Below, piece by piece: positions 34,060 to 35,385 of a DNA stretch of 64,000 nucleotides. Within the stretch, counting starts at the first letter, position 1; each line of letters starts with the position of its first letter. The stretch spans positions 4,826,501-4,890,500 of the forward strand of contig NZ_CP112874.1 in NCBI RefSeq assembly GCF_029910235.1, in the 5' to 3' direction. A model generated the notes under the pieces. It was given only the letters and a program-made list of their open reading frames with translations. It had not been told where the DNA came from and did not search any database. Position numbers and translations under genes: made by a program. Source of the DNA: Pseudanabaena galeata CCNP1313. Lineage in GTDB: Bacteria; Cyanobacteriota; Cyanobacteriia; Pseudanabaenales; Pseudanabaenaceae.

Positions 34060-34100
34060 CCAAAAAAACAGACGTTGCTAAGCAACGTCTGTTTTTTTGG
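34060..34100 (+). terminator. Rho-independent terminator of desA
   Basis: Stem AACAGACGTTGC...GCAACGTCTGTT with flanking A-run and T-run (CCAAAAAAA/TTTTTTTGG), 20 bp after the desA stop codon. Confidence 0.85.
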
Positions 34101-34161
34101 TTTCGGGGCATTGCTTTGCACTGCCCTGAACTTTTTGGATCAATGCTATTGCGCGATTATG

Positions 34162-34195
34162 TTTCATATTGTAGTATGCATACTACAATATGAAA
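34162..34195. promoter_or_regulatory. Perfect 34-bp palindrome before rtcB (candidate operator)
   Basis: Half-site TTTCATATTGTAGTATG is followed directly by its exact reverse complement, with no spacer. It ends eight bases before the rtcB start codon, covering the place of the ribosome-binding site and the likely start of transcription. This suggests a dimeric repressor site or an mRNA hairpin that limits translation. It is AT-rich and unlike the GC-tipped hairpins found elsewhere in the window. Confidence 0.6.
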
Positions 34196-34203
34196 TTAAG
34201 ACT

Positions 34204-35385
34204 ATGCCTTATCAAAAGTTAAATATCTCCACACCCAAGCCTGTGTTGTCTTGGGCTGCTCATGATCTAGGTTATGAAGAAACCAAAATGGCAAAAAATG
34301 TTGCATCCTTGCCCTTCGTGTTTAAGCATGTAGCGCTTATGCCTGACGTACATCTCGGTAAGGGCGCTCTCGTTGGTTCCGTGATTGCCACTAAAGAAGC
34401 GATCGTACCTGCGGCGGTAGGCGTAGACATTGGCTGCGGCATGGCAGCAATTAAAACTCCATTTCGTTATGAACAGCTAGAAGGTAAGCTTAAGCAAATT
34501 CGTCTAGAAATTGAAGCCGCAATTCCCGTAGGCTTTAATGACAATAAAGAAGTTGAAAAGCCAGTGCTAAATTGGCAAGGATGGCGAGAATTCCGCGAAT
34601 TACATTCAGGAGTTCAACATCTGGAAGGTAAAGCGATGAAGCAAATGGGTTCTTTAGGTGGAGGTAATCACTTCATAGAGGTTTGCATAGATACAGATAA
34701 TCAGGTGTGGCTGATGCTGCATTCTGGTTCTCGAAATATTGGCAATATGCTGGCTCAAAGACATATCGATACAGCCAAAAATCTCGCACGGTTAGCAGAA
34801 AATTCTTTGCCTGATAAGGATCTTGCCTATTTTATTGCGGGTACTGCTGAATTCGCAGCTTATTGGCGAGATTTACAATGGGCGCAGGAATATGCGCGTT
34901 TCAATCGCGATGTCATGATGGCGAGATTTAAGAAGATCATCGAGAAGTTTGCTAGCGGTGGTAAGCCTGTGAAGCCTTTACTAACTGTAAACTGTCATCA
35001 TAACTATGCAGAAAAAGAAACTCATTCCGGAGAAGATGTCTATGTCACCCGCAAAGGTGCAGTAAGGGCAAGAACTGAGGACTATGGTATTATCCCTGGC
35101 TCAATGGGAGCGAAATCTTTTATTGTCAAAGGAAAAAGTAATGCCGAAAGTTATTGCTCCTGTTCTCACGGGGCGGGGCGATTGCTATCGCGGAGTAAAG
35201 CGAAGGATCAATTCACTTTAGATGACCTAATTCAGCAAACTCAAGGCATTGAGTGTCGCAAGGATACAGGCATCATTGATGAAATTCCTGCGGCTTATAA
35301 ACCAATTGAGCAAGTGATGAATCAGCAATCTGATTTAGTGGAAGTTATCGCAACTTTGAAACAAATTATCTGTGTCAAAGGTTGA
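34204..35385 (+). CDS. rtcB: RtcB-family RNA-splicing ligase
   Basis: A 393-residue GTP- and Mn-dependent RNA ligase that joins 2',3'-cyclic phosphate and 5'-OH ends in tRNA repair. Signature motifs: LMPDVHLGKGALVGSVI, VGVDIGCGMAA (metal-binding Cys), GSLGGGNHFIEV, MLHSGSRNIG, VNCHHNYAE and SHGAGRLLSRS with the histidine that accepts GMP. The start is ATG 34204 (MPYQKLNIS); the frame stays open to 34075 only because it reads through the desA terminator and the palindrome. No archease gene is adjacent. The palindrome suggests dedicated control. Confidence 0.92.
   Translation: MPYQKLNISTPKPVLSWAAHDLGYEETKMAKNVASLPFVFKHVALMPDVHLGKGALVGSVIATKEAIVPAAVGVDIGCGMAAIKTPFRYEQLEGKLKQIRLEIEAAIPVGFNDNKEVEKPVLNWQGWREFRELHSGVQHLEGKAMKQMGSLGGGNHFIEVCIDTDNQVWLMLHSGSRNIGNMLAQRHIDTAKNLARLAENSLPDKDLAYFIAGTAEFAAYWRDLQWAQEYARFNRDVMMARFKKIIEKFASGGKPVKPLLTVNCHHNYAEKETHSGEDVYVTRKGAVRARTEDYGIIPGSMGAKSFIVKGKSNAESYCSCSHGAGRLLSRSKAKDQFTLDDLIQQTQGIECRKDTGIIDEIPAAYKPIEQVMNQQSDLVEVIATLKQIICVKG

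Follow-up and report, generated by a model that had tools for sequence, protein, structure and literature searches.

The 34-bp palindrome just upstream of rtcB in Pseudanabaena galeata CCNP1313 very probably holds at its core an operator for the repressor TrcR, which would keep rtcB silent until translation is impaired, while its arms would have been shaped by template switching. Within the window (the whole stretch of 64,000 nucleotides analysed) the palindrome occupies positions 34162-34195 and reads TTTCATATTGTAGTATG/CATACTACAATATGAAA, the two 17-nt arms being 100% complementary with 0 nt of spacer, and 8 nt (34196-34203) lie between its end and the rtcB ATG at 34204. The first-pass annotation had described a perfect, spacer-free palindrome eight bases ahead of the start codon, far beyond chance and not repeated, and this description holds. 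Three first-order Markov shuffles of the window gave no perfect inverted repeats (arms of at least 12, loop of at most 6), and the half-site has no second copy in the window at up to three mismatches; for its inner 14 bases, the 5.84-Mb genome has no other match with fewer than two mismatches. What that annotation missed is that the inner 18 bp (C1:4860670-4860687, window 34170-34187) read TGTAGTAT-GC-ATACTACA, i.e. two inverted TGTAGTAT boxes. The features of the region are as follows.

34060..34100, no strand: separate hairpin with 20-bp arms and a 1-nt loop, 3' of the desaturase gene that lies upstream; by eye it resembles a terminator, and it is taken as a unit boundary
34149..34154, + strand: predicted -35 TTGCGC, 17 bp ahead of the -10; weak match to the sigma-70 consensus, and the promoter scan gave no flag at the predicted rtcB promoter
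34162..34195, no strand: perfect spacer-free palindrome, 17-bp arms
34162..34169, no strand: left outer arm, between the predicted -35 and -10, covarying across species with the right outer arm
34170..34177, + strand: TrcR box 1 (by sequence), TGTAGTAT, identical to the trn operon box named in the available text of PMC10272220
34172..34177, + strand: predicted -10 TAGTAT, inside box 1; in Anabaena this hexamer also serves the trn operon as its -10 (PMC10272220, available text)
34180..34187, - strand: TrcR box 2 (by sequence), inverted, ATACTACA on the + strand, with a start-to-start distance to box 1 of 10 bp
34184..34186, + strand: predicted transcription start zone, placed from the -10
34188..34195, no strand: right outer arm, inside the predicted 5' leader
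34204..35385, + strand: rtcB, RNA ligase, 393 aa; PF01139 E 1.1e-125, homologues aligning from residue 1

The published system offers a close precedent. According to the available text of PMC10272220, the ribbon-helix-helix repressor TrcR of Anabaena PCC 7120 binds a box resembling the consensus 5'-TGTAGTAT-3'; in an operon of 26 tRNA genes this box overlaps the -10 TAGTAT. The same text gives rtcB (all3526) as a footprinted target that is bound and repressed, and that rises 77-fold in a trcR deletion; TrcR also represses itself and other targets, and antibiotics acting on translation elongation lift the repression, alongside falling TrcR protein. The first-pass annotation had proposed either a repressor operator or an RNA switch. 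Of these, the operator is supported because the core consists of TrcR boxes, the genome encodes trcR and, in Anabaena, TrcR has been shown to target rtcB; by sequence, several marks of a TrcR operator are in place, with two exact boxes, a trcR gene carrying its own box pair and an orthologue of a known target downstream. The RNA switch is not supported, as the left arm would fall outside the mRNA if transcription begins where predicted. The annotation's further suggestion, relief through RtcB itself by RNA ends made under stress, is speculative.

Around TAGTA the box is nearly symmetrical, and one TrcR dimer would be expected on each box, with neighbouring dimers on the same face of the helix. 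In the mechanism we propose, two dimers would sit one helical turn apart, each on one of the TGTAGTAT boxes, and TrcR so bound would cover the -10 and the transcription start of rtcB and silence the gene. Under impaired translation the level of TrcR would fall and rtcB would be transcribed, as would the other loci that carry boxes, namely trcR, a locus of tRNA-like RNAs and Ro60 and, in related species, an array of tRNA genes. As for the outer arms, which are outside the box, replication template switching would most likely keep them complementary. What the sequences show directly is the box pair, its conservation, the further loci with boxes, the shared occurrence with trcR and the arm changes in concert; we infer binding by the TrcR of this genome, the promoter and start positions, repression, the presence of two dimers per site and the mutational origin of the arm symmetry.

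The genome encodes one TrcR homologue (C1:708310-708642, E 6.6e-44 with a profile from six aligned TrcR), the promoter of which carries ATACTACACTTGTAGTAT 44 nt upstream of the ATG. Its neighbours are an HNH gene and a gene of the alr0857 family; the Anabaena target table in PMC10272220, in the part available, includes the HNH gene alr0856 and alr0857, beside all0854. The trcR, HNH and alr0857-family genes remain adjacent in this genome (L242:10308-12225, C1 ~708-710 kb), and the tRNA array common beside them in the genus is missing; ARAGORN found no tRNAs in 20 kb around the locus. The published autoregulatory motif, through which TrcR was retrieved, occurs in 41 of 292 genomes of the phylum. 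Among 30 loci from this search, 28 have a TrcR frame downstream of the motif, and Leu44 is in place in the single frame that was counted; in the other two the wrong frame had been taken (L183) or the protein was unrelated (L184). The TrcR of this genome scores 16.2 bits against Pfam RHH_1, below the cut-off of 20.5; TrcR gets only a weak antitoxin match in NCBIfam, and its profile gave no meaningful match to solved structures. A phage ribbon-helix-helix protein used as a seed for TrcR matched in one of 58 genomes (G006) and led nowhere.

A search for pairs of the degenerate box TGTARTAY found four places in 5.84 Mb, and reversed-pattern controls gave none in each search. The convergent pair (spacers of 0-5 searched) occurs at rtcB, the divergent pair (0-4) at trcR, and the tandem pair (1-4) at two places: one is a triplet that precedes a Ro60 gene, the other a weaker pair close to an open reading frame. 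This last match (L097, C1:2467818-2467837) reads TGTAATAC/TGTAATAT, and the nearby frame has no confident Pfam family. Matches to a 16-mer inside reading frames (L070, L072, L074, L076) were treated as chance; that at L068 overlaps a frame but directly precedes an array-type gene.

The Ro60 locus (L179:11220-13700, minus strand, C1 ~556-559 kb) comprises the box triplet, two tRNA-like RNAs and the Ro60 gene, the RNAs lying between the boxes and the gene. The Ro60 protein matches PF25045 (5.8e-39) and TROVE (9.8e-18), and reaches 319 bits against the NCBIfam Rsr model, whose cut-off is 900. In both RNAs a long piece replaces the anticodon arm. The first RNA was recognised by eye; against the tRNA model the second reaches 42.5 bits, and its replacing piece measures 65 nt. 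A tRNA-model match with a long insert was found in all 19 Ro60 loci searched (18 of the genus and that of G029), and a second one passed in two of them. In each of the 19 a tRNA-like domain stands beside a Ro60 gene, the mark of a bacterial Y RNA, to which class these RNAs would by sequence belong; they may be of the YrlA kind. Alignment A2 comprises 18 of the 19 loci, L264 being left out. The common box at rtcB, at trcR and at the Ro60 gene with its tRNA-like RNAs suggests a single RNA-repair programme scattered over the genome.

In a sample of 26 genomes of the genus rtcB was found in 16 and TrcR in 18, with Ro60 in the same 18. The convergent pair precedes rtcB in 16/16, with one change in box 1 in G014 and one change each in box 2 in G009, G014 and G015; the divergent pair precedes trcR in 18/18; and a tandem cluster stands at 18/18 Ro60 loci, all with the same layout of boxes, tRNA-like RNA and Ro60. 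Three boxes were found at 12 of 13 tRNA arrays of the genus (the first tRNA of the G019 array was not located by the pattern, and the array-type loci of G027, G029 and G037 are outside this count). The first-pass annotation had counted non-conservation of the palindrome in close relatives against its reading, and this check did not refute it. The core is kept in all 16 genomes, and perfect outer arms are kept in most, G009 and G014 being the exceptions.

Among 73 named rtcB loci outside the genus (RtcB identity of at most 82%), 47 have a paired box within 300 nt upstream, where 0.2 would be expected, and an internal stretch used as control gave none; the remaining 26 have no paired box at the threshold used. 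When all 80 named rtcB loci are taken, 54 pairs pass, and they come in every orientation; in 47 of them the box starts are 10-11 bp apart. Convergent boxes with long arms were seen in the genus and at no locus beyond it. Ro60 loci that have no box cluster are those of G037, G042 and G052, i.e. three of the four full loci outside the genus and three of the 22 examined (a count that leaves out the partial locus of G044), and the trcR of G029 has no box pair at the start codon used.

The boxes leave the outer 7-13 bp of each arm unexplained; these vary between species, yet are complementary or nearly so in 14 of the 16 genomes. At pairs 10-17 from the centre, 119 of 128 cells are complementary, a number that sliding one arm by 1-3 lowers to 34-44, and of 12 changes on the left and 14 on the right at least 10 coincide, against 0-3 when slid. 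Placed on the rtcB tree, these pairs show 10 two-sided changes and a single one-sided change outside the G009/G014 clade; within that clade there are five one-sided changes, the symmetry is lost and the boxes are kept. In G017 the perfect palindrome extends over at least 44 bp. The complementarity of the outer arms goes beyond what a box pair needs.

The genome is rich in such structures. Perfect short-loop inverted repeats number 54 in the 124 kb sampled here (the window together with L179, L180 and L242; arms of at least 12), against 22 in 493 kb of 73 other cyanobacterial loci, all of them rtcB surroundings, which is about ten times as many per base. Only two of the 54 are spacer-free. Among inverted repeats with arms of at least 17, 33 of 67 are perfect here and 5 of 31 in the reference loci. 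This excess may reflect terminator style. The perfect repeats in the window and the three other loci mostly have loops of 1 or 3 nt. As a cause of the arm symmetry we lean towards replication template switching that copies one arm onto the other, which is our best guess and somewhat the likelier account. In the available part of PMC8794818, template switching can perfect inverted repeats through simultaneous changes; the likeness lies in perfect stems maintained by changes on both sides at once, and the difference in that the process is described there for RNA genes, while here it would act on a promoter operator. One point against it is that a convergent pair is present at the array sites of the genus too, yet these have no long arms.

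The arms could instead be held by selection on the DNA itself, the promoter extruding a hairpin or cruciform as a second, supercoiling-dependent gate. The paired changes, far above those of the slid controls, are what such selection would leave, the single-stranded DNA folds at -12.1 kcal/mol (z -7.9), and among the box loci looked at only the rtcB site has long arms. The symmetry is, however, missing in two of the 16 genomes, and this genome has many perfect inverted repeats in any case, and we regard this explanation as unlikely. A broader form of it would unite a scattered TrcR regulon (RtcB, Ro60 and Y RNAs, a spare tRNA array and TrcR) with an rtcB operator that has grown into a self-complementary DNA element of ~32-44 bp, whose perfect symmetry selection maintains and which extrudes when TrcR leaves, making a supercoiling-sensitive second gate; this is speculative and has a small chance of being correct.

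An RNA switch would require the palindrome to be transcribed and to fold in the leader as a hairpin masking the ribosome-binding region of rtcB, the paired changes then reflecting RNA pairing. If transcribed, the hairpin would indeed be strong (z -4.4 in a 161-nt stretch), and changes do occur in pairs on both arms. The predicted placement of the promoter speaks against it. A TTG is present 21-22 bp before the first box, and 17-18 bp before TAG(T/C)AT, at 16/16 rtcB loci of the genus (in G009 and G014 the TTG at -21 was read from the printed sequence). The predicted start would fall in the right half of the palindrome, and the mRNA would therefore lack the left arm, which lies between the predicted -35 and -10; this counts against a switch. 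Nor is there a conserved promoter further upstream, since column conservation in the upstream regions of the genus is 0.40-0.57 from -90 to -25 and rises to 0.88 from -24 to -19. The hairpin at 34060-34100 would shield the region from the upstream gene. Four of the 11 two-sided changes are transversions, which have no wobble intermediate, and G009 and G014 have dispensed with the symmetry and kept the boxes. As the left arm is upstream of the predicted start and no Rfam family reaches its gathering score, the switch was dropped as the main reading, and we consider it very improbable.

That a regulator other than TrcR reads the boxes is likewise hardly to be expected. Such a view could draw on the indirect case for binding by the TrcR of the genus and on G010 and G019, in which trcR and Ro60 are present and rtcB was not found. 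Against it, the box, the autoregulatory site and the target gene all fit TrcR, and the genes occur together: in 58 genomes rtcB and trcR are both present in 27, rtcB alone in none, trcR alone in nine and neither in 22 (Fisher p 5e-9, uncorrected for kinship), and in the genus both rtcB and Ro60 were found only where trcR is present.

A chance or structural inverted repeat with no regulatory role (a terminator, or a mobile or repeated palindrome) would suit a genome rich in perfect inverted repeats, and has a negligible probability given that the palindrome is single-copy, has no T run, was unflagged by the terminator scan and keeps a fixed place and a conserved core in 16/16 genomes. A mobile or repeated element was ruled out by the single copy, and a terminator of the upstream desaturase by the absence of a T run; the hairpin at 34060-34100 fits that role, and was itself unflagged by a scan that requires a loop of 3-8.

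The TrcR operator at rtcB resembles those described for Anabaena PCC 7120 in the same 8-bp box TGTAGTAT overlapping the -10 (here a predicted one) and in rtcB as a target, and the wider system in the autoregulation of trcR through a divergent pair and in the tRNA array among the targets (PMC10272220, available text). It differs in that the rtcB boxes here are convergent and lie within a perfect palindrome of 34 bp, with binding deduced by analogy. The available text of that paper contains no word beginning with 'palindrom', its Table 1 has no Ro60, and it states that RtcR-type features (RtcR, RtcA, a sigma-54 promoter) are absent from Anabaena. Judged on sequence, the site is an operator of the TrcR class in a new arrangement, with convergent boxes in a palindrome. 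As far as the available part of PMC7790460 describes it, rsr-yrlBA-rtcBA of Salmonella, under RtcR, likewise joins RtcB, Ro60 (Rsr) and Y RNAs, one of which has a tRNA-like domain. There, however, a single operon is run by an activator that senses tRNA fragments, whereas here separate loci share a repressor box. Among the open-access papers listed, none links TrcR to Ro60 or Y RNAs in its title or opening abstract.

An unexplained palindrome thereby becomes a testable operator, and the prediction follows that TrcR, known from Anabaena, also controls the locus of Ro60 and the tRNA-like RNAs. Parts of RNA repair and RNA surveillance that form one operon in some other bacteria would be linked by TrcR, and the scattered regulon, if real, would be the equivalent, under a repressor, of the enterobacterial rsr-yrl-rtcBA operon. 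The 16 genomes also provide a natural series in which to ask whether the concerted evolution of a promoter palindrome stems from selection or from replication template switching.

With respect to the rtcB gene itself, the longer listed frame from TTG 34075 is a mechanical extension of the rtcB frame. The closest named relatives of the protein are those of Phormidium tenue FACHB-1050 and Pseudanabaena sp. SR411 (98%). The right arm contains an ATG that opens a 10-codon frame (window 34190-34222) overlapping the rtcB start, an ATG absent in species such as G002. In G021 rtcB is present in two separate pieces (L032 and L036, G021:C1 ~372.7-375.1 kb), and the box palindrome is intact.
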